Positions 1-35,993 of a stretch of DNA of 35,993 nucleotides are shown here, in pieces. The stretch comes from a virus. The position numbers were made by a program, and so were the translations under genes. The notes beneath the pieces are model-generated. The model did not search any database and had not been told where the DNA came from. It saw only the letters and a list, made by a program, of their open reading frames with translations. Location: positions 1 to 35,993 of the IMG/VR virus record IMGVR_UViG_3300034106_000235; one strand, written 5' to 3'. The number at the start of each line of letters is the position of its first letter. Positions within the stretch are counted from its first letter, which is position 1.

Positions 1-226
1 AGCTGATCTTCGATCCACCCACCGCCACATTGACTTCTGGCAGTCGAATCCATGAATTGATGTTGATTGGTTTTCCAAGCAATGCCCTGACCTTCTCCAT
101 GCCAGCAGCAGCCGTCTTCATGTTCTCCAGTTGCTGTGCGTCTGGCTGGTTGCTTATACCGAGCCTTGTGGCGGTATCAGAGTGCGTTGCCTCTTCAAGA
201 CTAAAGTGCTCACTTAGTTGCATCAT
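1..226 (-). CDS. Endolysin, peptidase M15 family, N-terminal part (cut by window edge)
   Basis: Reverse-strand frame beginning ATGATG, translating MMQLSEHFSLEEATHSD and later VRALLGKPININS and VAVGGSKIS. This is the characteristic N-terminal half of phage M15 (D-Ala-D-Ala carboxypeptidase-like) zinc peptidases that cleave peptidoglycan cross-bridges. The reading frame runs off the window start just before the expected His/Asp zinc-binding segment. The upstream sequence GGGAGAAG is a good ribosome site; ATG at 226 or 223 is possible. It overlaps the end of the 105-aa membrane protein by 17 bases. One oddity: family members usually read SSGYRSP where this protein has NSWIRLP. The matching C-terminal half lies at 35816-35993. 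Confidence 0.88.
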   Translation of the reverse strand, partial: MMQLSEHFSLEEATHSDTATRLGISNQPDAQQLENMKTAAAGMEKVRALLGKPININSWIRLPEVNVAVGGSKIS

Positions 227-527
227 CTTCTCCCACAATGGCTTTTGCAATGGCTGTCGATGCCTTGCGTCCTGAGATACCGCCCATAGTGCCGACACCC
301 ATAAACGCAATGGCTTTCAAGATTTCAAGGAAGATTGCGTCAATCGGTGCGAGTTCAGCGTCTTGCTTCTCGAAGCCAATAAGCCACAAAGTACCAAACG
401 CAATGCCAAGCACCATGATGGTGATCGACTTGACGACGAATGCCCAGACTTGGACTTCGACCTCTTCCACCGTCAGTTGTGGACGATTAGCCCTAGCCAA
501 CATCATTTGCTTTAAGAATTCAATCAT
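210..527 (-). CDS. Small two-TM membrane protein, candidate holin
   Basis: A 105-aa protein directly upstream of the endolysin. It has a short charged N-terminus (MIEFLKQMMLARANRP), a hydrophobic segment at about residues 32-52 (VVKSITIMVLGIAFG), a short acidic stretch, and a second hydrophobic segment at about 65-87 rich in Gly and Met. The tail (GEDDATK) is acidic to mixed. Size, two membrane spans and position between a 3-TM holin-like gene and the endolysin suggest a role in membrane permeabilisation or its regulation (holin or antiholin). I do not recognise the family, so the holin role rests on context. Its start overlaps the previous stop by four bases (ATGA). Confidence 0.7.
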   Translation of the reverse strand: MIEFLKQMMLARANRPQLTVEEVEVQVWAFVVKSITIMVLGIAFGTLWLIGFEKQDAELAPIDAIFLEILKAIAFMGVGTMGGISGRKASTAIAKAIVGEDDATK

Positions 528-1021
528 TTAACACCTTTCATCATCTCTTCAGTTTTAGCCTTGCTACCAGCAGAACTACCGCGATGGAAGTTCACCACCG
601 TACCCGTTAAAGTCCACAACGATCCCAAAGCCGTGAAAGCCATTGACTTGTTTTGCTCTGGTACGCCAACAATAAACACCACAAAGGTCATGGTGAGAGC
701 GCCAGCAATGATTGATGTGTCTATGACATAGGCAATGTTTTTTGCTAACCAAGACGCTGTGGCAGAGTTCTGTATCTCTGAATTCATCTTCCTTGCGTCG
801 GCAGTATTGGCTGCATCAATCTTCGCCATCTCCAGCTCAAGCTCTGCTATCTTCTCAGCAGCTTTTGGATCGCCAGCAATAGCCTTTGCAACGGCATCAA
901 CACTATCAGACACGCCAAACTTACTAGCCAAAGCGGTAACAGCAGAAGCACCCATAGGACCAGCGACAGCCATTGCCAGCGTGGGTGCGACACCCTTGAG
1001 AAGATTGAGTAAGTCATTCAT
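524..1021 (-). CDS. Holin-like protein, GTA/3TM holin type
   Basis: 165 aa. A hydrophobic, alanine-rich N-terminal segment (about 10-35) is followed by an amphipathic charged helix (AAEKIAELELEMAKIDAANTA, about 54-75). Two strong membrane spans follow at about 96-120 (IAYVIDTSIIAGALTMTFVV) and 125-145 (MAFTALGSLWTLTGTVVNF), then a short basic C-terminus. This layout matches the holin-of-3TMs family found in gene transfer agents and many phages, which forms the inner-membrane lesion that lets endolysin out. The start overlaps the stop of the 58-aa gene by ATGA and the stop overlaps the next start the same way. Confidence 0.78.
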   Translation of the reverse strand: MNDLLNLLKGVAPTLAMAVAGPMGASAVTALASKFGVSDSVDAVAKAIAGDPKAAEKIAELELEMAKIDAANTADARKMNSEIQNSATASWLAKNIAYVIDTSIIAGALTMTFVVFIVGVPEQNKSMAFTALGSLWTLTGTVVNFHRGSSAGSKAKTEEMMKGVK

Positions 1022-1194
1022 TTGCTTTCCTTGAGTTCTCGTTTGAGTTTACGCAACTCCTTGATTTCCTGTTTTAACTGCGCTCGCATATACAAAGTCT
1101 CTACATACGCCATTGAGGTTACACCCACAACAATACATAGCATGACGGCAATTAAAACCCACCAGATAAGTTTGACAGTTGCCACATTAGCCAT
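1018..1194 (-). CDS. 58-aa membrane/coiled-coil protein, possible Rz-like (i-spanin-like) protein
   Basis: Translation begins MANVATVKLIWWVLIAVMLC. One N-terminal transmembrane helix (about residues 8-30) is followed by a charged helix (LKQEIKELRKLKRELKESK) with a heptad-like Leu/Lys pattern. A signal-anchor plus coiled coil is the design of inner-membrane spanins such as Rz, although this is much shorter than lambda Rz and no outer-membrane lipoprotein partner was seen. Its stop overlaps the 165-aa holin-like gene (ATGA), and its start lies inside the end of the 243-aa gene. It is unbroken and placed within the lysis block, so it is very likely a real gene; the spanin role is a suggestion only. 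Confidence 0.68.
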   Translation of the reverse strand: MANVATVKLIWWVLIAVMLCIVVGVTSMAYVETLYMRAQLKQEIKELRKLKRELKESK

Positions 1195-1883
1195 CCAAAG
1201 ATCAATGAAATAAACATAACAGCAACCAACCCACTCATCTTCTCAATCTGGCGAATCTCCTCTTCTTCTTGTTTCCACCGTGCAAGCCTAGCCCTGCGAA
1301 TCATCTCAGACCTAGCCCACGCTTGCTCCTGTTCAATCCGTCCGTACATTACTAAAAATCTACTATACAGATTCTTCAACTCTGCTGGCGCGTACACCAT
1401 CGCCTCTCTGGTCTGCTCTAGCAACTTTTCCATTTGCAACTCAACCAGTACACGCTCGATTGCTTTCTTGCTGGTGTTCTGACTTGGGTCATAGTTAGTC
1501 TTGCTTGTCTCTTCCAGTTCTATGTAGTAGTTGTTAATCTGCTGTTGTGTGTCAAAGAGCAACCCAAGATTTTCACCAATGTCCTTGATTAGATTTAGTT
1601 CTAGTTGTTCGTAGGATTGTGTGGCTGGTTTTGCTTTGGCTGCTGGCTTGGCTGGCGCTTTCGCCACAGGCTTTGCCGTATCGTTGACAGTCTTTTCTTT
1701 AGGTGCGAATAGTCCGATGAACCAACTAAAAATATTCTTGATTGCCTTAACATCGTCCAAGACTCCCTCGGCAGTCTTCTTAGCAGACTCAAGCTGAATA
1801 CGACCTTGGTGTAGAAAGTCGCACCCCTGCTTGATAGCGCTGACAGCGCTTTGTGCCAATAAGAGGAGGCTGAAAGGGTCAAT
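1152..1883 (-). CDS. Phage protein with C-terminal TM and central helical region, likely AUU start
   Basis: The frame encodes about 243 aa. The N-terminus (IDPFSLLLLAQSAVSAIKQG) is followed by a helical segment, an Ala/Pro/Lys linker at about 72-88 (KAPAKPAAKAKPA), a long helical region rich in Glu, Gln and Arg, and one C-terminal membrane span (SGLVAVMFISLIFGWLMW). No ATG lies near the beginning. TTG at 1859 has no Shine-Dalgarno site. ATT at 1883 follows AGAGGTG at ideal spacing, overlaps the holin stop (ATTGA), and gives the xDPF-type N-terminus usual for such phage proteins. I therefore chose ATT. The protein may be a lysis or tail-associated membrane protein; I do not know its function. 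Confidence 0.75.
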   Translation of the reverse strand: MDPFSLLLLAQSAVSAIKQGCDFLHQGRIQLESAKKTAEGVLDDVKAIKNIFSWFIGLFAPKEKTVNDTAKPVAKAPAKPAAKAKPATQSYEQLELNLIKDIGENLGLLFDTQQQINNYYIELEETSKTNYDPSQNTSKKAIERVLVELQMEKLLEQTREAMVYAPAELKNLYSRFLVMYGRIEQEQAWARSEMIRRARLARWKQEEEEIRQIEKMSGLVAVMFISLIFGWLMWQLSNLSGGF

Positions 1884-2067
1884 GCTTCACCTCTTTATAA
1901 ATCTGGTAACACTTGTGGCAAATCATCAAGACCGTGTAGATCAAGGTAGCCCAGATCAATACCTCGCTGACCTGATAGCCAGCGACAGTTGCAAGGGATA
2001 CAGTAACTGGAGGTGCTGCCTTGGCAATTAGCGCAGCAGCGCCTTCGGTTGTGTGCTCTGAGGTCAT
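1879..2067 (-). CDS. Class II holin, T7 gp17.5-like
   Basis: 62 aa: MTSEHTTEGAAALIAKAAPP, then a hydrophobic segment (VTVSLATVAGYQVSEVL), then a second span (LIWATLIYTVLMICHKCYQIY) and a short charged end. The N-terminal Ala-rich stretch with an AAPP motif and the LIYTVLMICHK segment closely fit the T7-family holin pattern. The product would open the inner membrane at lysis. It overlaps the 88-aa gene upstream (ATGA), and its stop overlaps the ATT start of the next gene. A second, different holin-like gene lies 0.9 kb further on, so this phage carries more than one membrane-lysis protein. Confidence 0.85.
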   Translation of the reverse strand: MTSEHTTEGAAALIAKAAPPVTVSLATVAGYQVSEVLIWATLIYTVLMICHKCYQIYKEVKH

Positions 2068-2330
2068 GCAATACCCAAAGCAGTTTTAAGTTTTGCTAAC
2101 TCTGTTGGGCTTTCCAAAATCATATCGGTCAATGATTTAACTTCTATTTCTGTTTGCGTAGGAGGATTAGGGTCAGTAAATTCACCATTTGCATATACCC
2201 ATCCAATGCTTACCCTATCTGCTTGAATAGTTACATGACCTTCATCAAATCCAGCAGGAGGTGTAGAAGGTTGTTCTTCATATTCAACAACATTGACAAC
2301 CACACCATCTTTAATAATTGCGTATTTCAT
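2064..2330 (-). CDS. Small tail-fibre-associated protein (unknown function)
   Basis: 88 aa from the ATG at 2330 (MKYAIIKDGVVVNVVEYEE). The frame stays open upstream, but that stretch overlaps the fibre gene in another frame. N-terminal beta-strand-like residues and the motif VSIGWVYANGEFTDPNPP resemble short XkdW-like or tail-fibre accessory proteins that often follow phage fibre genes; the family link is tentative. The C-terminal helix (LTDMILESPTELAKLKTALG) is amphipathic. It starts immediately after the fibre gene stop and overlaps the holin start by four bases. The DNA is visibly AT-richer than its neighbours, suggesting exchange together with the host-range module. Confidence 0.7.
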   Translation of the reverse strand: MKYAIIKDGVVVNVVEYEEQPSTPPAGFDEGHVTIQADRVSIGWVYANGEFTDPNPPTQTEIEVKSLTDMILESPTELAKLKTALGIA

Positions 2331-2331
2331 A

Positions 2332-3228
2332 TCAATAAAACTCCTGAACAATAATAATTCCAGCCGCACCCGCACTTGAGCCAGCGCCAATAGTGCTTGT
2401 TCCAGCCGCACCGCCAGCACCAACAGCGTAAGAATATGTAGCACTTGGTGAAGTTATTAATTTTCTAACATATCCACCAGCAGAACCACCGCCACCCATA
2501 ACCCCAGAACTAGATGTACCTGCGCTTGCGCCTCCACTACCGCTATTTGCTGCTGGTGTTGGACCTGCCTGACCATCACCTCCAGCTCCTACTCCACCGC
2601 CAAAAAATCCAGCGCCACCAGAATTGCCGACTGCTCCTCCAGATTGGGAAACTGAACTTCCGCCTATTGCTCCTGTAATATTTACATCGCCACCAGAAGC
2701 CGTGCCACCAGCAGGGGGAACTGCACTTACAGTTCCTCCAGCTCCACCGCCTCCTGTTAGTGAACCAAATGTAGTATTTCCACCAGCCGTCCCTGTTGCG
2801 CCACTTACGTTGTAACCTGAGTTATTACCACCAGCACCACCACCAGCGCCTATCAACTCTACAAGAATTGCTTTGCACCCAGTAGGAGTTGTGTATGTAC
2901 CAGAACCAGAAGTAAATACTTGAACAGTTCTAGTTGTTAAAGCGATCGTGCCTGTTAATGCAGGTAAAGTTAAGACGCTAGTTCCAGCAACCGCATTTGC
3001 TGCGACTGTTGTAGTGCCTGATGTTGAACCAACAAATTTTGTCGTTCCAGCAAGATTCAATGTCTTACCGCTACCGATATTAAGACCGACCGATGTTCCA
3101 GTTCCTGCTGCTGCAAAGACTGCATCTACCGAGTCCAAGTCGGTATTGATCTTTGTGCCCCAAGTGTCTGTACTCGCCCCAACTTCGGGTTTAGTTAGTA
3201 ATAGATTGGTTGTTGTGGTATCTGCCAT
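2332..3228 (-). CDS. Tail fibre protein with glycine-rich C-terminal adhesin domain
   Basis: 298 aa. The N-terminus ([19 protein letters not shown], then [12 protein letters not shown]) is the attachment motif of many phage tail fibres. A beta-rich repeat region follows ([32 protein letters not shown]). From about residue 125 the protein is almost entirely Gly, Ala, Ser and Thr, with GAGGGAGG and GGGGAGG blocks, ending [11 protein letters not shown]. This resembles the polyglycine receptor-binding domains seen at fibre tips (T4-like gp38 adhesins and related glycine-rich domains). It should bind the host surface. It lies downstream of the repeat protein and immediately upstream of the lysis genes, a common place for host-range genes. 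Confidence 0.85.
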
Positions 3229-3237
3229 AGTTCACCT

Positions 3238-5226
3238 TCATGCTGGGACTTGCGTCCATGTTTCTGAATTGTCCGATATTTCTGACCAATTTTCCGATGT
3301 GTCTGAGATGGGACTCCAACTCTCCGATGTATCCGCGACTGGTGTCCAATCTTCCGATGTGTCAGATTGTGCTGTCCAAGTCTCTGGCGTGTCGTCTTGT
3401 CTGTCCCAATAAAAGTACCCAACATTGCCAACAGCGCCAGCAATGATTTCCCCAATTATCTCAAGAGTTCTAGCATTCTGTGCGCTACCAATAGCAGTTG
3501 CTGAAGATACGCCAGATATATCAACCACTACAAAAGTCTCGGCAATTACAGTTCCAACATCACAAGTAGACGAATTACCAGAGATGGAAACCGATAAGCT
3601 GTTGACTACTGAGTCAACCGCACCAGTTGACTGGTTGCCATCAATGCCAAACGCCTTGCCGACAGTACCGACTGTTGCGGTTGAGGAGACCCCAGAGATG
3701 GATATCGTGACAGATAAGCCGACAGACCCGACATTACCTGTGCCGACTACGCCATCCTCTTGCTCAGACAGATTGACTAATACAGTTCCAACGGCAGTCG
3801 TTGACGCATTACCTGTCAACGCAATAGATGTAGCGCCACGGCTTACAGAGCCTACGGCAGCCGTTGACGCATTACCCGTCACCGATGCGGAGATTCCTTC
3901 TGCAACGCTGCCTACGGCTGTTGTGGAGGCATTGCCAGTCAGAGCAAAGGATGTTGCGCCACGGGTTACGCTACCGACGGCAGTCGTTGATGAATTTCCA
4001 GTTATGGCAAAGGATGTTGCTCCGCGAGTAACCGATCCAACCGCAGTTGTGGATGCGTTGCCTGTAACTGCAATTAGTGGGGTTGCAACCACAGAGCCAA
4101 CCGACAAGGTTGACGCATTACCAGTCAACGCAAAGGATGTTGCGCCTCTGGTAACGCTTCCGACAGCAGTAGTTGATGCGTTGCCTGTGATCGCTGTTGA
4201 TCTGCTTACGCCAACAGAGTCAACCGCAGTCGTAGAAGAATTACCAGTTACAGCGTGAGTGCGCTCCTCTGCAACACTACCAACCGCAGTAGTCGAAGAA
4301 TTACCAGTTAGAGCAAAGGATGTAGCCCCGCGAGTTACAGAGCCAACGGCAGTAGTTGACGAGTTACCCGTTACTGCAATAGACCTTTCGCTAGTAACGC
4401 TACCAACATTACCAGTCGCTACCGTTCCATCTTCTTGAATTGATATTGATTCTTGTACGCTACCGACGGCAGTAGTGGATGCGTTACCTGTAACGGCAAG
4501 TGATGTAGCGCCTCGACTTACTGAGCCAACGCTAGTAGTTGATGCGTTACCAGTAATTGCTATTGATGTAGCGCCACGACTGACAGAGCCAACAGCAGTA
4601 GTTGACGAATTACCTGTAATGGTTGTCGATACTGCTGCGACAACAGTACCAACATTTCCTGTTGCTACTGTCCCATCTTCTTGAACTGATGTTGACTCTT
4701 GTACGATGCCAACGCTAGTAGTCGATGCGTTTCCTGTAACGGCAAAGGATGTTGCGCCTCGACTAACCGATCCAACGGCAGTAGTTGATGCGTTACCTGT
4801 AACGGCAAAGGATGTAGCGCCTCGACTTACTGAGCCAACGGCAGTCGTTGATGCGTTACCAGTTATTGCGTGTGTTCTTACTTCTTCAACACTACCAACC
4901 GCAGTAGTTGAAGAGTTACCTGTAATGGCTGCCGATACTGCTGCGATAACAGTACCAACATTGCCAGTTGCTACCGTTCCATCTTCTTGAATGGAAATTG
5001 TTTCTGTAACGCTACCAACGGCAGTCGTTGATGCGTTTCCAGATATTGCTACGGTCTTGACTGGTACGACAGAGCCAACATTACCAGTAGCTGCGTTACC
5101 GTTAGCTGTGGTAACGCCTACGCCATAAGCGCCTTGTCCATAGTTAGCGCCACCATATACGCCATAAGGGTATATGGTGCTTGCGTAATTACCTGAGCCG
5201 TAATTACCAGAGCCATAAGCAGCCAT
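3238..5226 (-). CDS. Large repeat tail protein (about 27 TGNASTTAVGSV-type units)
   Basis: 662 aa. The Gly/Tyr-rich N-terminus (GSGNYGSGNYAS, YGGANYGQGAYG) is followed by about 27 tandem units of 15-25 residues from about residue 61 to 605. The consensus is TGNASTTAVGSVSRGATSFA, with variants carrying the insertion QEDGTVATGNVG. The C-terminus (about 608-662) switches to five 10-residue units of the form SDTSExWTPV with Trp exactly every ten residues. The strict G-N/V-G-S periodicity suggests a beta-solenoid or an extended fibrous stalk. It sits between a virion protein gene and the fibre gene, so a virion-surface or tail-fibre role is likely. No enzymatic motif is seen. Confidence 0.8.
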   Translation of the reverse strand: MAAYGSGNYGSGNYASTIYPYGVYGGANYGQGAYGVGVTTANGNAATGNVGSVVPVKTVAISGNASTTAVGSVTETISIQEDGTVATGNVGTVIAAVSAAITGNSSTTAVGSVEEVRTHAITGNASTTAVGSVSRGATSFAVTGNASTTAVGSVSRGATSFAVTGNASTTSVGIVQESTSVQEDGTVATGNVGTVVAAVSTTITGNSSTTAVGSVSRGATSIAITGNASTTSVGSVSRGATSLAVTGNASTTAVGSVQESISIQEDGTVATGNVGSVTSERSIAVTGNSSTTAVGSVTRGATSFALTGNSSTTAVGSVAEERTHAVTGNSSTTAVDSVGVSRSTAITGNASTTAVGSVTRGATSFALTGNASTLSVGSVVATPLIAVTGNASTTAVGSVTRGATSFAITGNSSTTAVGSVTRGATSFALTGNASTTAVGSVAEGISASVTGNASTAAVGSVSRGATSIALTGNASTTAVGTVLVNLSEQEDGVVGTGNVGSVGLSVTISISGVSSTATVGTVGKAFGIDGNQSTGAVDSVVNSLSVSISGNSSTCDVGTVIAETFVVVDISGVSSATAIGSAQNARTLEIIGEIIAGAVGNVGYFYWDRQDDTPETWTAQSDTSEDWTPVADTSESWSPISDTSENWSEISDNSETWTQVPA
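3241..3405 (-). repeat. Five 30-bp coding repeats (SDTSExWTPV decapeptides)
   Basis: The last part of the 662-aa gene contains five approximately 30-bp units, each coding a decapeptide with the invariant pattern D-x-x-E/S-x-W. Trp spacing is exactly ten residues (about positions 617, 627, 637, 647 and 657). The DNA shows repeated TCCGATGTGTC-like blocks on the plus strand. Confidence 0.8.
3456..5043 (-). repeat. Degenerate 60-75-bp coding repeats in the 662-aa tail protein
   Basis: Successive DNA units coding TGN(A/S)STTAVGSV followed by a variable segment (SRGATSFAV, EERTHAV, QEDGTVA). Units are conserved in protein more than in DNA: third positions vary widely between copies, so the array is old or under protein-level selection. 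A few neighbouring units are nearly identical in protein, indicating more recent duplication. The repeat also creates long open frames on the opposite strand. Confidence 0.85.
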
Positions 5227-5243
5227 GTTGCTGCCCCTTAAAT

Positions 5244-5699
5244 TTAAGCGAGTCTGATCAAGCCTGTGCTTGCGTCATTCGTCGGCATGGTGAGTGTAAA
5301 AGTACCAGCCGTTACGGTCTGAGAACCGAAGGTGTGGACGCTAACTGCCTTGTTGCTTTGTGTGCTGTTATACAAGAGCACCGCATCAAATGCAGTAGAT
5401 AGAGTCACATTGGAGTATGTGATGCTGGCACTTGGTGTCACAAATGCAGTAGTACCGCTTGTGCTTGGCGCTGTGCCAAATGTCACCGCTTGACCGCCAG
5501 CCACATAATTAGTTCCAGAGACTTCGTTGGTTGCTGAGTATGCGGTAGTCGATGCGTTAACCGTTGCAGATGCCAAGTACAAGGCAGCCTTAAACGAGTC
5601 GGTAGCAGTAGAGCCACGAGTAACACCAGTACCAAAGTTGTGATGACCTACAAGTAATTCGCCCTTGAACGAAGTACACATTGCTTGAGTATTTGCGAT
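5244..5699 (-). CDS. Phage virion-associated protein (MCTSFK family), likely AUC start
   Basis: The frame reads ANTQAMCTSFKGELLVGHHNF and continues with Ser/Thr/Ala-rich beta-type sequence to LTMPTNDASTGLIRLA. Known relatives have a short leader of the type MAxxxAMCTSFK before this motif, so translation should begin upstream of the internal ATG at 5681. The only codon at the right place is ATC at 5699. It is preceded by AAAGGA at a six-base gap, whereas ATG 5681 has its nearest ribosome site 24 bases away. From ATC the product is 151 aa; from ATG it is 145. It is probably a tail or head accessory protein. An HNH gene separates it from the 65-aa gene. Confidence 0.8.
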   Translation of the reverse strand: MANTQAMCTSFKGELLVGHHNFGTGVTRGSTATDSFKAALYLASATVNASTTAYSATNEVSGTNYVAGGQAVTFGTAPSTSGTTAFVTPSASITYSNVTLSTAFDAVLLYNSTQSNKAVSVHTFGSQTVTAGTFTLTMPTNDASTGLIRLA

Positions 5700-5717
5700 G
5701 ATAGTTCCTTTCTTGGG

Positions 5718-6185: not shown

Positions 6186-6187
6186 CT

Positions 6188-6385
6188 TCAACCTAAAGAT
6201 TGAGCGACTGCTTCACCAGTCACGGTCATGCGTTTTAATTTCATATCGACTGAACGATGCACAAGCTCGCCTTCTAGCCAATACTCAACCCATTGAGTTG
6301 TCTCATTGTCATTGTCAATTATCCCCTCTTTTTTCTCAAGAAGAGAGTCGTCCATTTCGCCTTTTGTTGTAGTAACAATAGCCAT
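6188..6385 (-). CDS. Conserved small phage protein, unknown function
   Basis: 65 aa: MAIVTTTKGEMDDSLLEKKEG, then DNDNETTQWVEYWLEGELVHRSVDMKLKR. It has an acidic middle and a predicted beta hairpin (WVEYWLEGELVHRSV). I recognise this as a type of small protein that follows the adaptor gene in SU10-like and related podophages, but its function is not known to me. It begins ten bases after the adaptor stop with an AGGAG-type site (CTAGGAGAAAAAAATG), and its stop lies just upstream of the HNH start. The HNH gene appears to have been inserted immediately behind it. Confidence 0.78.
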   Translation of the reverse strand: MAIVTTTKGEMDDSLLEKKEGIIDNDNETTQWVEYWLEGELVHRSVDMKLKRMTVTGEAVAQSLG

Positions 6386-6394
6386 TTTTTTCTC

Positions 6395-7984: not shown

Positions 7985-7986
7985 GT

Positions 7987-8015: not shown

Positions 8016-8028
8016 TTCATTAGTTCAA

Positions 8029-8991
8029 TTAAGAAGTAACCAAGTCAGCAGCAATGCCGTGGGCATTTTCTGCATATACCTTGTGTCCATATTCAACGAT
8101 TAGCATACGCTTCTCAGCGTCGCCAGTCTTTGCCAACTCGATTTGTTGGTATGGGCGCAAAGTTACAACACCTGCGTATTCTGGATCAATCACAAATGCG
8201 TCACGCTCGCGTTGGAAGCGATTAGGCACGACTTGCACATTGCCGAAGTCAGACACATAAATGTCTGCTGCGCCAATGATGGTTGCAGGACGAGCACCGC
8301 CATCAATGTTGAAGCGTGAAGATGCGATACCAGAGAAGCCAGAAACGCGCTGCTTGTTGACTGGACCAGTCATCAAGATTTTTGGTGTACCGCCAGAAGT
8401 CCAAACTTGTTGAATAACATTCTTCAAGATGGTTTCTGTAAAGGTACGCACATTGCCGTCACTACGAGCGCCAGTAGGCACAGTCGTGTAAGTGGGGTTA
8501 GCACCGTTCGTCTGCATATCGTAGTTAGTCTTGATGAAGGCTTGCAATGAAGCAGTACCGCGAGCTGTTGTGGTGTTACCAGCAGCAGCCACAGCGCCAT
8601 TAAGCATTGTGAATTCTTGATCACGCTTTAACTCAGCGCTACGCTTGGCAATTTGATATGCCAATTCAGATTTTCTTCCTGCCTTGTTGACAGTCTCTTC
8701 AGTTGCAGACAAGACGATAGTCTTACGGCTAATCTGAGCATAGTTTTGTAAACGCACAGTAGCAGTAACGCTATCGAAAGAAGTCACATCGTCGCCTTCG
8801 AGCTGCTTGTTAGCGGCTGCTGCTGCGAGTGTGTCTGTCTGCCATTCAAACAAAGAGTTGCTGATCGACTCCTTGCGAATGTTGCTCATGTAAGGAGTCT
8901 CTTCGGGAGCGATGTTAGTGATGATGTTGGATAAGTCCTCGCGGATACCCTTCGCATCGAATGTGGTGAATGTGTTGGTTACGATTGCCAT
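8029..8991 (-). CDS. Major capsid protein (DUF5309 / SU10-like, HK97 fold)
   Basis: 320 aa. The N-terminus (VTNTFTTFDAKGIREDLSN, then IAPEETPYMSNIRKESI) is typical of the DUF5309 family of major capsid proteins, including that of phage SU10. Further family features are FEWQTDTLAAA, AQISRKTIVLSATEETV, GRKSELAYQIAKRSAELKRD and the C-terminal IVEYGHKVYAENAHG. It forms the icosahedral shell. It is preceded by the scaffold gene and followed by a strong terminator, both usual for a capsid gene. Length is normal. Confidence 0.94.
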   Translation of the reverse strand: MAIVTNTFTTFDAKGIREDLSNIITNIAPEETPYMSNIRKESISNSLFEWQTDTLAAAAANKQLEGDDVTSFDSVTATVRLQNYAQISRKTIVLSATEETVNKAGRKSELAYQIAKRSAELKRDQEFTMLNGAVAAAGNTTTARGTASLQAFIKTNYDMQTNGANPTYTTVPTGARSDGNVRTFTETILKNVIQQVWTSGGTPKILMTGPVNKQRVSGFSGIASSRFNIDGGARPATIIGAADIYVSDFGNVQVVPNRFQRERDAFVIDPEYAGVVTLRPYQQIELAKTGDAEKRMLIVEYGHKVYAENAHGIAADLVTS

Positions 8992-9000
8992 TTGAGTGTC

Positions 9001-9984
9001 CTATTTCAAAAGAAGTTCTATTGCGGAGGCAGCGTCATTGACGCGACCTGACTTTGCAAGACGCTGTTTTGCGCGTGTACTTTCAGTTGTTGTGGAGACG
9101 CGACCTGCTGCACTAGGCTTGGCGGGGCGAGGACCGTTGTTGACGACTGGCTTGATCTGCCCACGCTTGGACATCATCTGGTCATAGAGCGCTGCTTTAC
9201 GCAACGCAATGACAGCTCTGTGGTCATAGACATTCTTGAGTTCTTCGTCGCTGAATCCGATCTTTTTGCCGAATTCGACGAGTAGAGCCTTTTCAGCCTG
9301 TGCCTTCTTGGAATCTTTCCACTCAGGTACGGCTTGGATCAGGGCTTCTTGCTGTGACGCAAGGTGAGCTTGCATTTCCTGTGCTCTTTGTTGCGCTGTA
9401 AGTTGCGACAGTCGCTGCTGCTCAGACTGAATAGCTGCGAGTTTGTCTTGCTTTTGGCGCATCACTTCTGACTGTCTCACCCACTCGATTGGATCTTCGT
9501 TATAGAGTCGATCCATATCGACAGGTGCTTCAGTTGACTCAAGTTGCTGTTTCAACGCTCCCAACAATTGGGCGTACTGTTCACGCTCGGCACGAATCGC
9601 ACTAGCCTCTGCCTCAACAGCCTTACGGGTCTCGGCAATTTGCTGTGTCTTTCGTGTGTAATCCTGAGTTCGAGAATATCCTTTTTGAAGTTCGTCTAGC
9701 GTGACATCGATCTCTTTACCGTCAACTTTGACGGTGTAGACCTCTGTGGGCTTTTCTTCTTCGTCGGTTTCTTCATCTAACTCTGATTGTTCCTCTGTCG
9801 TTTCGTCACTCAATTCGTCGTCTTGCACATCGAGTTCTTCATCAACAGAGACCGCGACCTCGGAGTTATCCTCGGTCAAACGCGCCTTGTCAGTTTTCTG
9901 CTGTTCTCCGTCTAACGGCAACATTAATTGATCAAGAGCACTGGCTGCATCAGCCACGGTCATAGGGGTTTGGGTTATTTCCAT
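9001..9984 (-). CDS. Capsid scaffolding protein
   Basis: 327 aa. The very acidic N-terminal third (DEELDVQDDELSDETTEEQS, about 48-67) leads into a YTVKVDGKEIDVTLDELQKG motif at about 84-104. Such a motif precedes the coiled coil in many podophage scaffolds. A long coiled coil follows (about 115-225), rich in Glu, Gln, Arg and Ala. The basic C-terminus (STRAKQRLAKSGRVNDAAS) is the usual capsid-binding end. It directly precedes the capsid gene, as expected. The scaffold guides procapsid assembly and is then released or cleaved. Confidence 0.88.
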   Translation of the reverse strand: MEITQTPMTVADAASALDQLMLPLDGEQQKTDKARLTEDNSEVAVSVDEELDVQDDELSDETTEEQSELDEETDEEEKPTEVYTVKVDGKEIDVTLDELQKGYSRTQDYTRKTQQIAETRKAVEAEASAIRAEREQYAQLLGALKQQLESTEAPVDMDRLYNEDPIEWVRQSEVMRQKQDKLAAIQSEQQRLSQLTAQQRAQEMQAHLASQQEALIQAVPEWKDSKKAQAEKALLVEFGKKIGFSDEELKNVYDHRAVIALRKAALYDQMMSKRGQIKPVVNNGPRPAKPSAAGRVSTTTESTRAKQRLAKSGRVNDAASAIELLLK

Positions 9985-9996
9985 TTCCTACTTCCT

Positions 9997-10263: not shown

Positions 10264-12456
10264 TTAGACCATTCCTTGTGGGTTGATGGGTTGCATTGGT
10301 GCTGGCTGGGCTTGCGCCATCGCCTGTTGTACCAACGCGCCTTGCTCTCGAATAACCTCGCGGTTGACATTCTGCTCCGCAACAATTTGTGCGGTATTCA
10401 GTTGTGTGTTGTACTTTAACTCAAGTTCCATTTGTTTAAGTAGTCTATCTTGACTCATTTGATCGCGTCTAAAGTCGTCGTCCATGATCATCTTCTGGCG
10501 CTGTAACTCCAAGTCGGCAGCCTTTTTCTGGATGTCTGCACGAATAGACTCGGCTTGCACCTGAGCCAAAACCTCTTCTGGGCTTGGTTTTGGCGGTGCT
10601 TGTGGGGGCTTGTAGCCCTCTGGTATGTCGTTGAAGTAGCTCGATGCGTCTTTGATTCCTGACATCTCGACGATCTTCTTTAAGGTGTTGACATACATCT
10701 GCGGAGTCACCACCACATTCTCTAAGCCAAACTGAGTCAAGATGGATTCTTGCTTGGCGAGTACCTGCATGAGCTGCATCTGGCGCTCATTTGCATCGCC
10801 ATTGCCCAGACCGATATTGATGTTGACATCCATCGTCGCGTCCCATCCGCGTGGGTCAATCTGCACAAACTTATTGCGCAATCGGATCATGCGGGGTTTG
10901 TCTTGGTGAGTGGTAACCAAAAACAGGATTGTCTTAAACAGCTCCTTCATGCCCTCAGCCATGAGACGCGCAGTCAGCTCGATGCGTCCTTGGCTGGCGC
11001 TTACTGTGGCAGCCACGGCAGCCTTAGTTGAAGACTGCAACGCATCTGGGTTGAGACCCATAGATGCCTTAGACATTCCTGTGCGACCTTCCTTGATCTC
11101 GTCCAAGTAGTTGAGCACAGGGAAAGCAGCCTGTCCGACAAATGGGGTTACCAACGGCTGCACCATATTCGGAGCACGCGCACGAATGATCGCGCCCGTC
11201 TCGTTGTTCAAGGCATCGTCAATGTTGACCTGACCCTCAACGATCACGGTGCGGGGATGGATCGACTGCGCCAGAGAGTCGAGCGTATTGCGCATGACTT
11301 CTGACTTGATCTCTTGTAAGTCGCGTGTAATGTCAAAGATCGACATCGCCTCAAGTGGTGATGTGTGGGGTTCTGGGTCACAAGGGAATTCAACGAATGG
11401 GATGTATGACGCTGGCAGGTTTCTAACCATCTTGTAGCCAGACCCCATAAAGCACATCTTCCTCAACTCAGGAATGCCGTCGCCATCAAAGTCAACCTTG
11501 GCGTATCCCTCGATGTACAAAACTCTTTGCATCATCGGGTTCGCGCTCTCGTTTAAGAACTGAGAGTTGCTAAGTGGCTGGCGTGCAAGAGCCTCTTCGT
11601 TGTCGTACAAGTCGGACGAGCCAACATAGTCCATAACTTCGTCTTCGTCGTAGCCCATGCCGACCAACTCAGCAACCGTTGCCATCTTGCGGTGACCGAT
11701 AAAAGGTGAGTCCTTGAAGGACATCGCTTGGCGAGACAGTAGCAATTCTTCTGGCGGTAAACACGCCACATGGATACGCTTGTCAACGATCTTTCTTTTG
11801 ACCTGCACATCGTGCATCATGGCTGGGGGTAGTGGCATTCCAGTCATCGGATCGATCTGCATCGCTCCTTGCATACTCTCGTCTGGATAACTCGCAACGA
11901 TCTGCACATCTGCGTCTCCCTCTTGCATGACGACCTGCAAGGTCTGGTCATCTAGACCTGAATATTCCTCAATTCGCACCGACTCCGAGTCCTCAATGTA
12001 GACCTTGACAATGCCACACTTCCTGACAAGAGCGTCTTTAAATGTGGCGTATGCCACCATAAAACCGTTGTTGTCGTTGTTAAAAACATAGTTGCAGTAG
12101 TCTGTGGCTTGCTGTGCGCTGTCTACATCCTCTGGACCACGCGGGACAAACTCGACCGTGTTCTCGCTGCTAAAAAACACCTTCATCAAGGACGGCAGCA
12201 TGGCAGACACGGTGTCTCTCACCTCCATCGCCACTACTTGTGAGCGACCCTCTTCCTCGTTACCAAAGGGATCACCACGGTAGTACTCAGTACCGCGAGC
12301 GCGGATAGGAGAGAGGTCAGAGTCGATGTAGCTCACAGCGTCTGTGATCTCTTGACCCATGATCGCTTCTAAGTCGGTGTCTGTCATAGGGGTGAGCGTC
12401 GGGTCAATCTGTGACGCGATGTCGGTGCTCAATCCCAGCTCGTTAGTAATATTCAT
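10264..12456 (-). CDS. Portal protein
   Basis: 730 aa. The N-terminal helical region contains a segment typical of podophage portals (LSPIRARGTEYYRGDPFGNE, then VVAMEVRDTVSAMLPSLMKVFF). The middle holds IRARAPNMVQPLVTPFVGQA and YLDEIKEGRTGMSKASMGLN, the stem/crown signature of P22/SU10-type portals. The C-terminal 130 residues are helical and coiled-coil, Gln/Met-rich (ADLELQRQKMIMDDDFRRDQ), a barrel-type extension. The protein forms the dodecameric ring through which DNA is packaged and ejected. It is long, as expected for portals with a barrel. It overlaps the methyltransferase stop by four bases and precedes the small head protein and scaffold. Confidence 0.93.
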   Translation of the reverse strand: MNITNELGLSTDIASQIDPTLTPMTDTDLEAIMGQEITDAVSYIDSDLSPIRARGTEYYRGDPFGNEEEGRSQVVAMEVRDTVSAMLPSLMKVFFSSENTVEFVPRGPEDVDSAQQATDYCNYVFNNDNNGFMVAYATFKDALVRKCGIVKVYIEDSESVRIEEYSGLDDQTLQVVMQEGDADVQIVASYPDESMQGAMQIDPMTGMPLPPAMMHDVQVKRKIVDKRIHVACLPPEELLLSRQAMSFKDSPFIGHRKMATVAELVGMGYDEDEVMDYVGSSDLYDNEEALARQPLSNSQFLNESANPMMQRVLYIEGYAKVDFDGDGIPELRKMCFMGSGYKMVRNLPASYIPFVEFPCDPEPHTSPLEAMSIFDITRDLQEIKSEVMRNTLDSLAQSIHPRTVIVEGQVNIDDALNNETGAIIRARAPNMVQPLVTPFVGQAAFPVLNYLDEIKEGRTGMSKASMGLNPDALQSSTKAAVAATVSASQGRIELTARLMAEGMKELFKTILFLVTTHQDKPRMIRLRNKFVQIDPRGWDATMDVNINIGLGNGDANERQMQLMQVLAKQESILTQFGLENVVVTPQMYVNTLKKIVEMSGIKDASSYFNDIPEGYKPPQAPPKPSPEEVLAQVQAESIRADIQKKAADLELQRQKMIMDDDFRRDQMSQDRLLKQMELELKYNTQLNTAQIVAEQNVNREVIREQGALVQQAMAQAQPAPMQPINPQGMV

Positions 12457-15457: not shown

Positions 15458-16957
15458 TTATGCAACCCTTGACAGGTTTCTTTTCAACGGTTGAGACCAC
15501 TTCTGACTCGTATTCGCACCAAACATCGAGACGGCAGCGTCGCTTGCGAAGGTCAACACAAAGCTGTCAGCCTTGTCGGGAGACTTCAAGCCACGCTTTC
15601 TAATGTCGTCCTTGCCCTCAACCTGCATCTTTCCTGAGCTGCTAAAGAAGTACCTCACAGTCGCCAGTTCAGCAACCAGCTCCTCGTCATTGGGGATACG
15701 GCAGTCACGCGCCTCGAACCACGCCTTTGCCTTGTACCAAAGCTCTGCCCGAAGATTCCTGTAAGTCGTACCCATCGCGGGAGACTCGGAGACATTGATA
15801 CCGCGAGCTGGCAACCCAAGTTCTCGCAGACGGTCAACGACACCAGCGCCAAGACCAATCGAGTCCACCATGATCTCGTGGGGTCTTTGGCTTGGCGGTA
15901 GGGCTTCCCACTCTGCGACGACAGCGCCTGTGAGTTGCATCAAGTCCAGATTCTTCCAAGTCTTTGTGGGTTCTATAAGCGCGTTGCCCTGTCTCTTTGA
16001 GAGTGCCGACCTGTCCCCACCAAAGCGTGCGACATCCAAGCCCCAGATCAGCTTGGCGTGCTGGGAGGTCTCGACATCCCTGTGCTTTGCAAGTTCTAGT
16101 AACTCCATCGGGATGATCGTGTCGTCGTCTGACCTTGGGAATTCACCTAGTACCCTTATTCGGTATGCGTTGGACTCTTCCCCGTACCTAGCCTTCATCT
16201 CTTCGACATAGGCATCGCTGACCCTTGGCGAGTCCACGCAAGAGACTTTCATCGTCACCCAATCATTTGCGAGTCGGTTCTGGGTGTCGTAGAAGAATCC
16301 GCTAGAGCGTACGGGATTGCCCAGCAGAAGGGTGACGGCATTGTGGCCAGACATCGAGCCAGCAGCAGCCTCGAAGACAGCCTCTGGGATGCCAGATGCC
16401 TCGTCAGCCACCAGCATCACATTCTCTGAGTGGACACCTTGCAGGGCTTCGGGTTGCTCTGCCCTCGATGTCCTTGCGGAGACAAAAGCCTCGGACGCTG
16501 CTTCCTTGACCTCGATCCTGTCCTGCTTGACTTCGAGCATATCCCTCAAGGTCTCTGGCAGTTCCTTCACCCAGCGCTTTAGTTCCGCAAAGAGCGCGTC
16601 GTATAGCTGGCTGGATGTGGGGGCTGTTACCACCACCTTGACGGGATACCGCAAGAGTAAGTACCAGATGATCGCCCAGCTTGCTGCTGTGGACTTGCCT
16701 ACGCCATGACCAGACCTTACCGATATTCTGCGGTTGCCCTTTGCGATGTGCATTAGGAATGTCTCTTGCCAAGTGTCGGGGTTCGCCTTTAAGACTTCCT
16801 TGACGAAGAGCACGGGGTTGTTCTTGTAGCGGATGGTGAACGCAACAAAGGGATTCTTGGAGAGTTCGTCTTGTTGTCTGTCTTGGATGCGGTCTATCTT
16901 TGCCACCACATCGGGGTGTAGTTTCTTTTTTTCTGGTGCAGTTGATTCTGTCGTCAT
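15458..16957 (-). CDS. terL: Terminase large subunit (ATPase/nuclease)
   Basis: 499 aa. The N-terminal ATPase has Walker A SGHGVGKST (82-90), Walker B VMLVADEA (180-187) with catalytic Glu186, and coupling motif LLLGNP (210-215). The C-terminal RNase-H-like nuclease has the acidic set Asp308 (WGLDVARFGGDRSA), Asp365 (IMVDSIGLGAG) and Asp464 (SPDKADSFV). The protein pumps DNA into the procapsid and cuts concatemers. The length is normal. A 337-bp non-coding block separates it from terS, which is unusual because these genes are normally adjacent. The ribosome site is weak, so an own promoter or a processed leader in that block is possible. Confidence 0.96.
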   Translation of the reverse strand: MTTESTAPEKKKLHPDVVAKIDRIQDRQQDELSKNPFVAFTIRYKNNPVLFVKEVLKANPDTWQETFLMHIAKGNRRISVRSGHGVGKSTAASWAIIWYLLLRYPVKVVVTAPTSSQLYDALFAELKRWVKELPETLRDMLEVKQDRIEVKEAASEAFVSARTSRAEQPEALQGVHSENVMLVADEASGIPEAVFEAAAGSMSGHNAVTLLLGNPVRSSGFFYDTQNRLANDWVTMKVSCVDSPRVSDAYVEEMKARYGEESNAYRIRVLGEFPRSDDDTIIPMELLELAKHRDVETSQHAKLIWGLDVARFGGDRSALSKRQGNALIEPTKTWKNLDLMQLTGAVVAEWEALPPSQRPHEIMVDSIGLGAGVVDRLRELGLPARGINVSESPAMGTTYRNLRAELWYKAKAWFEARDCRIPNDEELVAELATVRYFFSSSGKMQVEGKDDIRKRGLKSPDKADSFVLTFASDAAVSMFGANTSQKWSQPLKRNLSRVA

Positions 16958-17219: not shown

Positions 17220-17230
17220 TTATTTTGCTG

Positions 17231-18643: not shown

Positions 18644-20692
18644 TCATTTCTTGATCGATACGACCACCGAATTGGCTGTTTTTGCGTCGTCATCTTCCGC
18701 ATAAACCGCCCAGCACATATCACCATAAATTACTACTTTCTTGAAATCAACAAGGTCTGCTTTGACGCGATACCAAGCCTTATTGAAGCTCGCCAACTGC
18801 ACATCGCTGCCCATCCGAGCCTTGAATTCGTCCCTCCAAAGGTCTAGCTTTATGCACTTATTGCGTTTGTCGTCGATCACCTTCATCTCGCCAAACTTCT
18901 TAATTGAGTCGTGCAGACAGTTCAAAGCGAGTCTCTGGTTCATTCCCTTGCCTGTCTTATCTGGCGGTTTGATGGACTTTCTTTCGGTGTCCATCTCCTC
19001 GTCTGCCTCGACCGCCAGACTGGATGCACCTTCAAAGTCAATCACTCCAGACGATCCAGTCGTGACCTCGACCATCTTGAAGCCTATGCGTTGACCGTCT
19101 TCCCCGTCCTTTTGCTTGGAGATGTGGAGTATTCCCTTTGGCGGTTGAGCGCCTTCGATCCTGATAATCTCCAGCTCGGTATCTACTGCTCCAAGCAATG
19201 AAGAGTGACCCCTAAGTCCCTTGGTAGCGTCCTTACCAGCGTGATGCACCACCAAGAGAGAGCACTCATACTTGCCTTGTATAGCGCCAGCAGCCGTAAT
19301 GAATGCACCCATGTCTTCGCTTGCGTTCTCATTGCCACCGCCAAACGCTCTGGCTAAGGTATCGATGATGATCATCTCAAAGTGAATCTCATGGATTGCT
19401 TTGAGTTCGTCAATGGCTTGCACCAAGTCCTTGAGGTCTGTCTGACTGCTTCTGAGGTTGACTTGCCGTCTCAGGAAATAGACTGGTGTTCCTTCTGGCG
19501 TGCCGTGGTGAATCTTCAGCGCCTTGATCCTTGTGCCGATACCGCCATGACCTTCACCCGCGATGTACAGGACTGCACCTTGCTTGGCTATCTGGTTGCC
19601 GAGGAATGGTCTGCCTGTGGCGATGCACTCTGCAATATCGAGCGCCACAAAGGACTTGAAACTCGCTGGCGGTGCATATAAAGCGACGAAGGAGCGTTGC
19701 GGTATGACTCCTTGTACCAGCCACTCGACAGGTTCATCCTCGATGTCGTCCCACGCTTCGAGCTTGAATCCTTCGCGTTGTAGTGGTGCTTGTGGCAGCT
19801 CCAACTCTTGAATTTCTTGCGTCTCAACAGAATTATTCAATCTTGCAGGAGTCGTTACATCTAGTTCACTTACGACTGCTTGAGTGGCTTTTGTCAGGTC
19901 AACCAGCCGATCCTTGTCCCCGCCATACTTGTAAACAAACTCGTATGCGTCTTCCTTGATCTCGTCGAGTCCAAGGTCTACCACTCGGATACTTTTTGTA
20001 ACCGACTTGAGAGCTGCAACTGCCTTTCTTGCGTACTCCCAGCCCACCGTGTCGTTGTCAGGGACTATTGCGATGGTGAGTCCGACTAGGTGCTTGACTA
20101 CATCTTCGGGGAAGCTGCTTGCGCCTTGGTGCGTACAGGTTGCCACCACACCTAAAGACTTGAGAGCGTCGGCTGCCTTCTCGCCTTCGCACAAGAAGAC
20201 TGTGCGTCCTGTTTTGCGTGCAAAGTCCACCTCTGGCAAGTTGTAAGGAACAATGTTCGCACCCGTCATAGATGCGTGCCGTCTGCCGTTCTCGTCGACC
20301 CTGTACTGCTTGTATGTCTTTCCTTTGGAGTCAAAGGTCTTGTAGCGTTGTTTTATGTGCTGTACGACCCCATCCTCATCTGTATAGTGCCACTCCTGCT
20401 CTAAGACAGGTTCTTGAGGTTTCGGTAACGGCTTGATCTGGGTGAGGAAGTCAGTCGGATTGGGTAAGTCTGGCAGCAGACCATAGTCCTTGACCGCATT
20501 GAAGACCGACTCCTGAGAGCACCCACTAAAGCATTTGAAGAGTGGCTTGCCTTCGTCTGTCTCGCTGACGCAAAGACTTGGATTCCTGTCCCCGTTACCC
20601 TGCCCGTGTGAGCTTACAGGACAGCTCGCCATCCATTGCCCGTTAACCTTCTTTGCGTTGCCAAGCGCTTGCGCTATTTGTTCGGCTTGCAT
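18644..20692 (-). CDS. Bifunctional DNA primase-helicase
   Basis: 682 aa from ATG 20692 (AAGGA five bases upstream; the longer frame to 20770 lacks an RBS). An N-terminal zinc finger contains Cys24, His29, Cys54 and Cys58 (CPVSSHGQG, KCFSGCSQE). TOPRIM-type primase motifs follow: VFLCEGEKAADAL (166-178) and IVPDNDTVGWEYA (209-221). The helicase is a RepA/AAA_25-type RecA-like domain with P-loop-like YAPPASFKSFVAL (339-351), Walker B MIIIDTLARAFGGG (440-453) and VVHHAGKDATKGLRGHSSLL (481-500). The Walker A is atypical (ASFKS in place of GxGKS), as is common in this helicase class. The C-terminus is winged-helix-like. It primes and unwinds DNA at the phage fork. Confidence 0.92.
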   Translation of the reverse strand: MQAEQIAQALGNAKKVNGQWMASCPVSSHGQGNGDRNPSLCVSETDEGKPLFKCFSGCSQESVFNAVKDYGLLPDLPNPTDFLTQIKPLPKPQEPVLEQEWHYTDEDGVVQHIKQRYKTFDSKGKTYKQYRVDENGRRHASMTGANIVPYNLPEVDFARKTGRTVFLCEGEKAADALKSLGVVATCTHQGASSFPEDVVKHLVGLTIAIVPDNDTVGWEYARKAVAALKSVTKSIRVVDLGLDEIKEDAYEFVYKYGGDKDRLVDLTKATQAVVSELDVTTPARLNNSVETQEIQELELPQAPLQREGFKLEAWDDIEDEPVEWLVQGVIPQRSFVALYAPPASFKSFVALDIAECIATGRPFLGNQIAKQGAVLYIAGEGHGGIGTRIKALKIHHGTPEGTPVYFLRRQVNLRSSQTDLKDLVQAIDELKAIHEIHFEMIIIDTLARAFGGGNENASEDMGAFITAAGAIQGKYECSLLVVHHAGKDATKGLRGHSSLLGAVDTELEIIRIEGAQPPKGILHISKQKDGEDGQRIGFKMVEVTTGSSGVIDFEGASSLAVEADEEMDTERKSIKPPDKTGKGMNQRLALNCLHDSIKKFGEMKVIDDKRNKCIKLDLWRDEFKARMGSDVQLASFNKAWYRVKADLVDFKKVVIYGDMCWAVYAEDDDAKTANSVVVSIKK

Positions 20693-33360: not shown

Positions 33361-33720
33361 TCACACCTTGTTGGTGTAGATAAAAGCCTTCGATCCGTCC
33401 AATAGTGATATTTGACATTTCTCAGACCAGCCAAATGACTTGGCAAATCTTGCAAGTTTGATGTCATCTTCGCGTATTAGCGCGTAGATAGGCTTCCCAA
33501 TTAAATCCTCCACAAGAGCAAAGTCCCTATGACAACCTCTTTTGACTTCAGCCGACCACTTCTTTATGTCGATATGAAACCATAAAAGACCCTCAAAGAA
33601 CTCCAAGTAAAAGGTGTAATCCTCTCGGATACACACAGGTACTTTCCCCGCCCTTAATTCTTGATCCAATTCTAAGTCACCGTTTGCCCATTGCGACAAC
33701 ATCAAATCGGTTAACGCCAA
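33361..33720 (-). CDS. Small conserved phage protein, possibly acetyltransferase-fold (T7 gp13-like position)
   Basis: 119 aa reading MALTDLMLSQWANGDLELDQ, then YLEFFEGLLWFHIDIKKWSA, then LIREDDIKLARFAKSFGWSE. Alternating strands and helices and the end motif RFAKSFGWSEK...FIYTNK recall GNAT-like internal proteins located near podophage nozzle genes, but the acetyl-CoA loop is not visible, so this is tentative. The start is either TTG 33720 (GAGGA about eight bases upstream) or ATG 33702 (no clear site). It overlaps the nozzle-protein gene by up to 44 bases. Confidence 0.7.
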   Translation of the reverse strand: MALTDLMLSQWANGDLELDQELRAGKVPVCIREDYTFYLEFFEGLLWFHIDIKKWSAEVKRGCHRDFALVEDLIGKPIYALIREDDIKLARFAKSFGWSEKCQISLLDGSKAFIYTNKV

Positions 33721-35158
33721 CGCGCCAGTCCTCTAAGACATTGCCCGTGTACCTGACCTTGACCTGTCTGGCAGCGAACCTCACATCTGTGGGTTGAGCT
33801 GCTGCATACGGTCCATAAGTCGTCTCAGTCGCCATCGGATACATCCGAGTCTTGAAGGACACAACGACCTCGCCTAGCGTTTGCTCGTCTGGGATAACCC
33901 GACGCACAGACATGATGTTGTCGCCAGCACCAATCTCGTAAGGACCAGACTCAGCGAAGGGGACAGCGCTGTCATAGGCGTAGCCGACTTCGTGCTCGTA
34001 GATGTAGCCGTCAGTTGAAATCATCAAAGGATTGGTGAATACGCCTCTGTCAGTTCCAGCAGTACGAGCCAAACTACCAATAGCCCAATGCCCTTCGCGG
34101 TAGTTGTAGACGACATAGGAGTCGTTTTCATTGCTGGCGCTAGACGGGTAAAACCAGATGATCTCGCCATATTTACTATTGTGGACAGCGTAGACCTTGC
34201 TTGACTGGTTGTAGTTGATGTTCTGGAAGATGTAGTCGCCAACATCCGACACCAAGGGCTTGACATATCCGTCGTACACCCAGAAGCCTGACTTAGACAT
34301 CCAGATGGCTGCGGTATCAATGGCTGCGACAGCCTGTGATGAGATCACGCCACAACCTGATCCTGCCTTCTCAAAGGAGTAGACATAAGGCAGACCAATG
34401 TATGTCGCCACATGGACATCGACATCGGTAAACAAAAGATTGATACCCCTGACGCGCTTACCGCACTTCAGAGAGCCGACAGAGTTGATCTCAAAGCTAC
34501 CTGCCTGATTCGTTGCGGATGGTGTCCAGACGGTATTGTTTTCTTGATCGCACCACGCCACAAGTCTAGGATTACCAGAAGCACCAAGTCCAAAGACAAA
34601 GCGCTCTGCCGTCGTCATCACAGCCTCGCAACCAGTTGGCGCGTTAGTAATCGCCACCGCCAATGTTGGCGTGGTAAAGCCTAACTGCCACTCAAGGAGC
34701 TGACCATCTGAACTTGAGCACGCAACCAAATACTCGCCCCATGAGTCCATTGACCAAGTTGTCGCTGGGATTATTCCTCCCAAGTCTGGACGCGCCACAC
34801 CGTAAGCGAAGTCCCCATAAGTACCGTAGCCGTAACCAGTCTTTAGCGTTGCGTCTGTAATGCCGTTTGTGAAGGTTGTAGGCGTGATGTCTTTCAAGAC
34901 TCCAGCCTCGCTCATTGCGTATAGTTTTGTTGGAGTTCCAGCAGCAATATAACGAGTATCGGAATTAGTACGCCAAGTCAACATCCCACGACTGACACCA
35001 GTCATTTGTGAGGTTGAGCGCTTACGCCACCCACCCCAAGGTCTCAATGTGTTCTCAAACCAACGCACAAGGTTTGAGTCGTACCAGCGCCCCGCAGACT
35101 GGTACTCAGTACCGTTGCGGTAAACGCCAGCAGGGATTTTGATTGGTACGAGTGCCAT
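33677..35158 (-). CDS. Tail nozzle / P22 gp10-like tail protein
   Basis: 493 aa. The N-terminus (VPIKIPAGVYRNGTEYQSAG, then RWYDSNLVRWFENTLRPWGG, WRKRS) is the characteristic start of podophage tail proteins of the nozzle/gp10 type. It continues as beta-propeller-like sequence with repeated aromatic-Gly strands (TGYGYGTYGDFAYGVARP, SWGEYLVACSSSDGQLLEWQ, FVFGLGASGNPRLVAWCDQE). It should form the tube continuing the adaptor ring. Gene order (endolysin, C1q-like tail protein, nozzle, internal proteins) supports a tail role. Confidence 0.84.
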   Translation of the reverse strand: MALVPIKIPAGVYRNGTEYQSAGRWYDSNLVRWFENTLRPWGGWRKRSTSQMTGVSRGMLTWRTNSDTRYIAAGTPTKLYAMSEAGVLKDITPTTFTNGITDATLKTGYGYGTYGDFAYGVARPDLGGIIPATTWSMDSWGEYLVACSSSDGQLLEWQLGFTTPTLAVAITNAPTGCEAVMTTAERFVFGLGASGNPRLVAWCDQENNTVWTPSATNQAGSFEINSVGSLKCGKRVRGINLLFTDVDVHVATYIGLPYVYSFEKAGSGCGVISSQAVAAIDTAAIWMSKSGFWVYDGYVKPLVSDVGDYIFQNINYNQSSKVYAVHNSKYGEIIWFYPSSASNENDSYVVYNYREGHWAIGSLARTAGTDRGVFTNPLMISTDGYIYEHEVGYAYDSAVPFAESGPYEIGAGDNIMSVRRVIPDEQTLGEVVVSFKTRMYPMATETTYGPYAAAQPTDVRFAARQVKVRYTGNVLEDWRVGVNRFDVVAMGKR

Positions 35159-35165: not shown

Positions 35166-35819
35166 TTATGCTGAAAGATTGGACACAAAGGTAACCGTCG
35201 CAATGACAGACGGTATAGATGGTCTTGTTGGCGTGGAGCTGGCAGCGTAGTGCTCAATGTATGCACCAACATCTGAGGTGTGCCACATGAGTTCAACATA
35301 GTCGTTTGTGTCAAGACTTACAAAGAAATTCATTGCACCGATAAGGTGAAATGGGTTTCCCGCACTCTTTCGTGGTGCTAGTCCAAAGCGTGAATTCGAC
35401 TTGTCGATGTTTGTGCCGTTCTTGCGAAACCAGATGTCAATATCATTCGACGCACTCGTCGTGTTTACTAACTGCACGCTGAACTGAATGTTATAAATTC
35501 CAGACTGAGACACATTGAGTCTTGACGAGTTAGACAAGGTTACGCCATTGTTGAAGTCAGTTGTGTCGAAGGTTATGGCATAGGCAGTCGTCGTATTGGC
35601 TGCCGTTTGGTCTGTGCCGTCTTGGAATGCCCCGTAAGGCATATTGATAAACCTCCCACCCCGTGGTGACGCAAGGGACTGCAAGGCATTTGTCAACTTC
35701 AAGAAGAAGGTGCGCAAAGCACCATTCGTCTGCGCAACAGTCAGACGGTCATACCGATCCTGCGGATTAGGCAGATCGGGTACGGCTGGAGTCTGGAGTT
35801 GCTGGTAGAAGTTCGTCAT
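35166..35819 (-). CDS. Tail protein with jelly-roll/C1q-like C-terminal domain
   Basis: 217 aa. The helical N-terminus (MTNFYQQLQTPAVPDLPNPQ, DRYDRLTVAQTNGALRTFFL) is followed by a beta-sandwich-like C-terminal part (YAITFDTTDFNNGVTLSNSS, GIYNIQFSVQLVNTTSASND, IDIWFRKNGTNI, LDTNDYVELMW). This strand pattern resembles C1q/TNF-like trimeric domains used in phage tail and receptor-binding proteins. It lies between the endolysin end (overlap ATGA) and the nozzle gene. It is probably a small trimeric tail knob or attachment protein. Confidence 0.8.
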   Translation of the reverse strand: MTNFYQQLQTPAVPDLPNPQDRYDRLTVAQTNGALRTFFLKLTNALQSLASPRGGRFINMPYGAFQDGTDQTAANTTTAYAITFDTTDFNNGVTLSNSSRLNVSQSGIYNIQFSVQLVNTTSASNDIDIWFRKNGTNIDKSNSRFGLAPRKSAGNPFHLIGAMNFFVSLDTNDYVELMWHTSDVGAYIEHYAASSTPTRPSIPSVIATVTFVSNLSA

Positions 35820-35993
35820 AGAGCCTTGTTGTATTCGTCTTGCGTGAGTAAGCCAATGGCGTATTTGTTTTGAGGTCTGAAGATGGTCAGTTTCTGCTGA
35901 CGCATTGCTGGCGCAAAGGAGATGTGAGTCCAGCCCTTATCGCCAAACTCATGGATCATCTGGTCAAACTTGATACCTGCTGCGTCAATAGCC
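35816..35993 (-). CDS. Endolysin, peptidase M15 family, C-terminal part (cut by window edge)
   Basis: The complete frame at the end encodes AIDAAGIKFDQMIHEFGDKG, WTHISFAPAMRQQKLTIFRP and QNKYAIGLLTQDEYNKAL to TGA 35816-35818. FDQMIHEFGD...WTHISFAP is the catalytic Glu plus third zinc ligand (His in W-x-H) segment of M15 peptidases. It complements the N-terminal half at 1-226 without overlap. About 25 codons carrying the expected first zinc-ligand motif (H-x6-D type) are missing between the two. For an intact frame the missing bases must number 3n+1. Its stop overlaps the next start (ATGA). Confidence 0.9.
   Translation of the reverse strand, partial: AIDAAGIKFDQMIHEFGDKGWTHISFAPAMRQQKLTIFRPQNKYAIGLLTQDEYNKAL

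Follow-up and report, generated by a model that had tools for sequence, protein, structure and literature searches.

Contig ends inside an intact M15 endolysin gene of an uncultivated tailed phage with a circular genome map

The window analysed here, a stretch of 35,993 bases, is an entire IMG/VR virus record, and its edges are therefore contig ends. At the first of these lies the N-terminal part of an M15 endolysin gene (1..226, minus strand), which comprises 75 codons and one further base and is cut by the window edge. The 75 residues, MMQLSEHF...VAVGGSKIS, are encoded by positions 226-2, and the frame is open to the edge. Membership of the Peptidase_M15_3 family (PF08291) was defined as a profile match above the curated cut-off of 23.2 bits; this N half (P0001) alone scores 35.8 bits (E 9.7e-9) over profile positions 2-64 of 108, and it also matches PHROG 894, ‘endolysin’. 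The C-terminal part of the same gene occupies the opposite end (35816..35993, minus strand) with 58 codons and a stop, plus one base at the edge. Its 58 residues, AIDAAGIKFDQ...YNKAL*, are encoded by 35992-35816 with an open 5′ end, and the GWTHIS motif within them is likely to supply the last zinc ligand. There is thus one spare base beyond the endolysin codons at each window edge, and the frame changes when the ends are joined directly, as the original prediction had stated.

The two halves had also been noted not to overlap, and a search for direct overlaps of 5 to 299 nt between the window ends found none. Terminal repeats, which had been raised as a further possibility, were sought at the window ends without success, and neither end has a second copy inside the window. 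CheckV recognizes a closed genome by the direct-terminal-repeat criterion, which requires a repeat of 20 bp or more at each contig end (PMC8116208); the window carries no such repeat.

The genes on either side of the split endolysin run in the same direction. Just upstream, and overlapping the endolysin start, is a 105-amino acid ORF (210..527, minus) with no family match, which is a putative holin because Caudoviricetes sp. isolate ctjtQ328 (MW202879.1) has its annotated holin at this position. Further upstream is a 165-amino acid ORF (524..1021, minus) that matches PHROG 1544, of unknown function, and is a probable member of the lysis cassette. Directly downstream, a 217-amino acid ORF (35166..35819, minus) without a family match has a start that overlaps the endolysin stop. 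It is followed by a virion structural protein (33677..35158, minus; PHROG 3287) with 65% identity to the ‘phage stabilization protein’ that lies downstream of the M15 gene in MW202879. An M15_3 metallopeptidase adjoining probable lysis genes is, as far as its sequence allows it to be judged, a standard phage endolysin. Its family and its place in the lysis cassette suggest that it would cleave peptidoglycan peptides in a Zn-dependent manner at lysis.

The remainder of the map, all on the minus strand, includes the major capsid protein (8029..8991; PHROG 1328), the scaffolding protein (9001..9984; PHROG 3927), the portal protein of the SU10_portal family (10264..12456; PF23899, E 1e-198; PHROG 1216) and the terminase large subunit, TerL (15458..16957; PHROG 2, E 9.7e-44). 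A primase/helicase (AAA_25) is found at 18644..20692 and, like its counterparts in relatives, starts at the ATG near 20692. A 662-amino acid ORF (3238-5226, minus) gave no PHROG or Pfam match and contains many imperfect repeats of ~60-63 nt between ~3550 and 5100, with 9-11 copies per family and mostly 60-80% identity; it is probably a repetitive tail-fibre protein. Residues 411-703 of a 791-amino acid protein (26503-28878, minus) match PHROG 7348, ‘endolysin’. This protein is large for an endolysin and may be a virion-associated lytic protein, which would give the phage another enzyme against the cell wall in addition to the M15 peptidase.

A megablast of window positions 1-12,000 against annotated phages returned no match. 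At the protein level, homologous TerL, portal, scaffold and capsid in conserved order place the window with the phiM5/MW202879-like Caudoviricetes. MW202879, named Myoviridae sp. by its depositors, was deposited as a circular sequence of 36,472 bp. It carries the portal, scaffold, capsid, holin, M15 peptidase and stabilization protein in the order of the window, with 62-69% amino acid identity for the portal, TerL (69%), capsid and stabilization protein. Its M15 gene lies intact between the holin and stabilization genes, but the encoded protein is shorter (138 amino acids) and ~40% identical, and many accessory genes are unlike those of the window. Sinorhizobium phage phiM5 (MF074189.1) also has the conserved structural order, with amino acid identities of 55% for TerL, 43% for the portal and 54% for the capsid. 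It differs in its size of 44 kb, in having 357-bp direct terminal repeats and in encoding a DNA polymerase A of its own, and its endolysin gave no match with either half of the window endolysin. The sequenced phage is an uncultivated member of the Caudoviricetes with an SU10-type portal and belongs to a kind that is already known.

The junction is spanned by contigs of the same phage. An independently deposited contig of 5,659 nt (IMGVR_UViG_3300042905_000126; L088, the same as L002) carries an intact endolysin gene over the window’s junction. It corresponds to window positions 640-1 and then 35993-31042 at 100% identity (640 + 4,952 nt, zero mismatches or gaps), such that all 5,592 common bases are identical. 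Between these two stretches lie exactly 67 bases that the window is without; the contig is also just 5.7 kb long. The same 67 bases are present in L086 (3300042392_000162), which matches the window at 100% over 184 nt and 99.35% over 4,781 nt. As 67 equals 3 x 22 + 1, the endolysin frame is restored, and the intact gene in L088 is a single frame of 156 amino acids that takes in both halves. The original prediction of a short insert of 3n+1 bases was correct in its form, whereas the suggested length of ~76 was not, with 67 nt in L088, L086 and the relatives of 28-36 kb.

The 156-residue product matches Peptidase_M15_3 more strongly than the N half (E 3.9e-14, 53.1 bits). The 67-nt stretch of both contigs encodes SHMDGWAIDF, an H-x6-D motif, and so contains the first zinc-binding motif where it had been expected. 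Together, SHMDGWAID and the later histidine of GWTHIS in the C half of the window would make up the zinc ligands of the family. A search of solved structures with the last 133 codons of the intact endolysin found nothing at E 0.001. From the identity of these contigs, we infer that the window’s own molecule would close in the same manner.

The same arrangement extends to more distant contigs. Scans with each endolysin half recovered 144 relative loci, with several loci per contig, and both halves are present in 139. In 134 of the 139 loci the halves are 69 nt apart, which corresponds to the 67 bases plus one spare base at each edge; in four, the distance is 66 nt. The single odd locus (L013) has a deletion further on. 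In this contig (3300008107_003180, positions 4021-4450), the C half is without ~35 nt and its frame is shifted, which may reflect either a genuine mutation or a fault of assembly. Five relatives of 34-36 kb (G001-G005) and one of 28 kb (G008) are each colinear across the junction with a spacing of 67 nt, measured between window bases 1 and 35993. They are largely colinear with the window elsewhere, at 84-88% identity over the aligned parts. L088 and this spacing exclude both a junction flanked by unrelated sequences and a long gap with further genes.

The five larger relatives (3300023184_000308, 3300027963_000014, 3300042485_000012, 3300042154_000151 and 3300012665_000077) have intact endolysins, circular maps and a mean nucleotide identity of 84-88% over 24-26 kb. 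They differ from the window in modules swapped in the tail-fibre and early regions and in the position of their breaks. In window coordinates, these lie near 20690 (G001), beyond 26495 in a poorly conserved part (G002), at 17039-17215 (G003), at 8734-8893 (G004) and at about 2069-3047 (G005). The ends overlap exactly in G002 (127 nt) and G005 (55 nt), and with one difference each in G003 (187 nt) and G004 (160 nt). At least G003 has an extra gene adjoining the primase: its contig (L150) encodes, at 3630-4397 and upstream of the primase, a 255-amino acid product resembling a DNA cytosine methyltransferase in its motifs, for which the window has no counterpart (20690-20842). At the same site, G005 has ~0.7 kb extra, and the G001 contig also ends there.

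The differently broken relatives are circular permutations of one gene order, and all cross the window’s junction. Since they cross it and four of them have end overlaps, and since MW202879 is circular with a matching order, the map is circular at ~36,060 nt. The gene order around this circle agrees with that of the five larger relatives, and its conserved core also with that of MW202879. “Circular” describes the genome map as read from assembled sequences and would not extend to the form of the packaged DNA. With 67 of ~36,060 nt missing, the window is effectively 99.8% complete, which bears out the proposal of a nearly complete phage genome with a short gap.

The reading that we favour, at a probability of roughly 0.97, is that the window is a contig of an uncultivated tailed phage with a circular map, in which assembly stopped 67 nt short inside an intact endolysin gene. 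The metagenome assembly would have gone once round the circle and halted just before meeting itself, within an ordinary M15 metallopeptidase gene. The split endolysin is thus an assembly artefact, and the gene, already present intact in a public collection from this phage, has nothing unusual in it.

As to why assembly halted at this point, assembly on a de Bruijn graph breaks at points that offer more than one path (PMC10914622), and a stop could therefore be caused by strains of this phage group occurring together. Among 87 aligned relatives, identical 31-mers peak at the stretch encoding SKISSHMDGWAID, at the break (0.156 versus mostly 0.02-0.05), and identical 55-mers are also highest in the gene around this stretch (0.048 versus mostly 0.01-0.02). 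Assembly-graph ambiguity would then have arisen in the part of the gene most often common to relatives, a cause that is plausible but unproven; a local loss of coverage may have acted instead.

The position of other contig ends bears on whether the break could be physical, with the window ends being those of a packaged linear genome (cos or terminal-repeat) within the endolysin gene. A few other contigs do stop within ~60 nt of the break, with six relatives’ ends against 1.9 expected in 120 nt (P ~0.013, a post hoc value from non-independent contigs). However, these ends are scattered over ~85 nt and share no single base, the sequence continues unbroken in two contigs of the same phage and in 139 relative loci, the relatives’ ends fall at many other places, and the window ends carry no repeat. 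Enrichment is stronger 0-850 nt upstream, with 19 ends against six expected. This upstream cluster reaches window 1021/1022, where homology stops and the relatives begin to diverge, and is for that reason better explained by strain variation than by a physical terminus. At about 1015-1030, the edge of conserved homology, five contigs (L019, L023, L024, L026 and L033) end at most 15 nt apart, ~800 nt upstream of the endolysin start; some of them probably represent one population that was sampled twice.

Among the isolates compared, the nearest one for which ends are annotated also argues against a terminus in the lysis cassette, as the fixed 357-bp repeats of phiM5 lie just upstream of terL. 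The terS-terL intergenic region upstream of terL in the window (16958-17294), which contains G-runs, is a candidate packaging-end site because the phiM5 repeats and the 187-nt redundancy of G003 sit at the equivalent place. Physical ends within the endolysin gene are considered very improbable. The same slight probability is given to a physical cut at this locus in part of the population, as a site of secondary packaging or nicking; if true, this would explain why several relatives’ contigs end within ~60 nt.

Self-splicing elements often occupy conserved active-site codons, and an intron, homing endonuclease or other insertion at the zinc motif could have led the assembly to break there. Against this, no relative contains an insert, 138 of 139 loci show a spacing of 69 or 66 nt while the odd one has a deletion further on, and both contigs of the window’s own phage have an intact frame, leaving such an insertion even harder to credit than a physical end. 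The idea that two different phages, or a chimeric contig, supplied complementary halves by chance found no points in its favour and can practically be dismissed, as L088 joins both sides at 100% identity and the gene order round the circle matches G001-G005 and the MW202879 core.

With assembly arrest inside an intact gene as the preferred reading, the record is effectively a complete genome, though its ends lack the terminal repeat that would mark it as closed. The two apparently truncated genes at its ends are to be annotated as one intact endolysin. More broadly, the genes found at the two ends of a contig can reveal near-complete circular phages that are missed by repeat-based tests.
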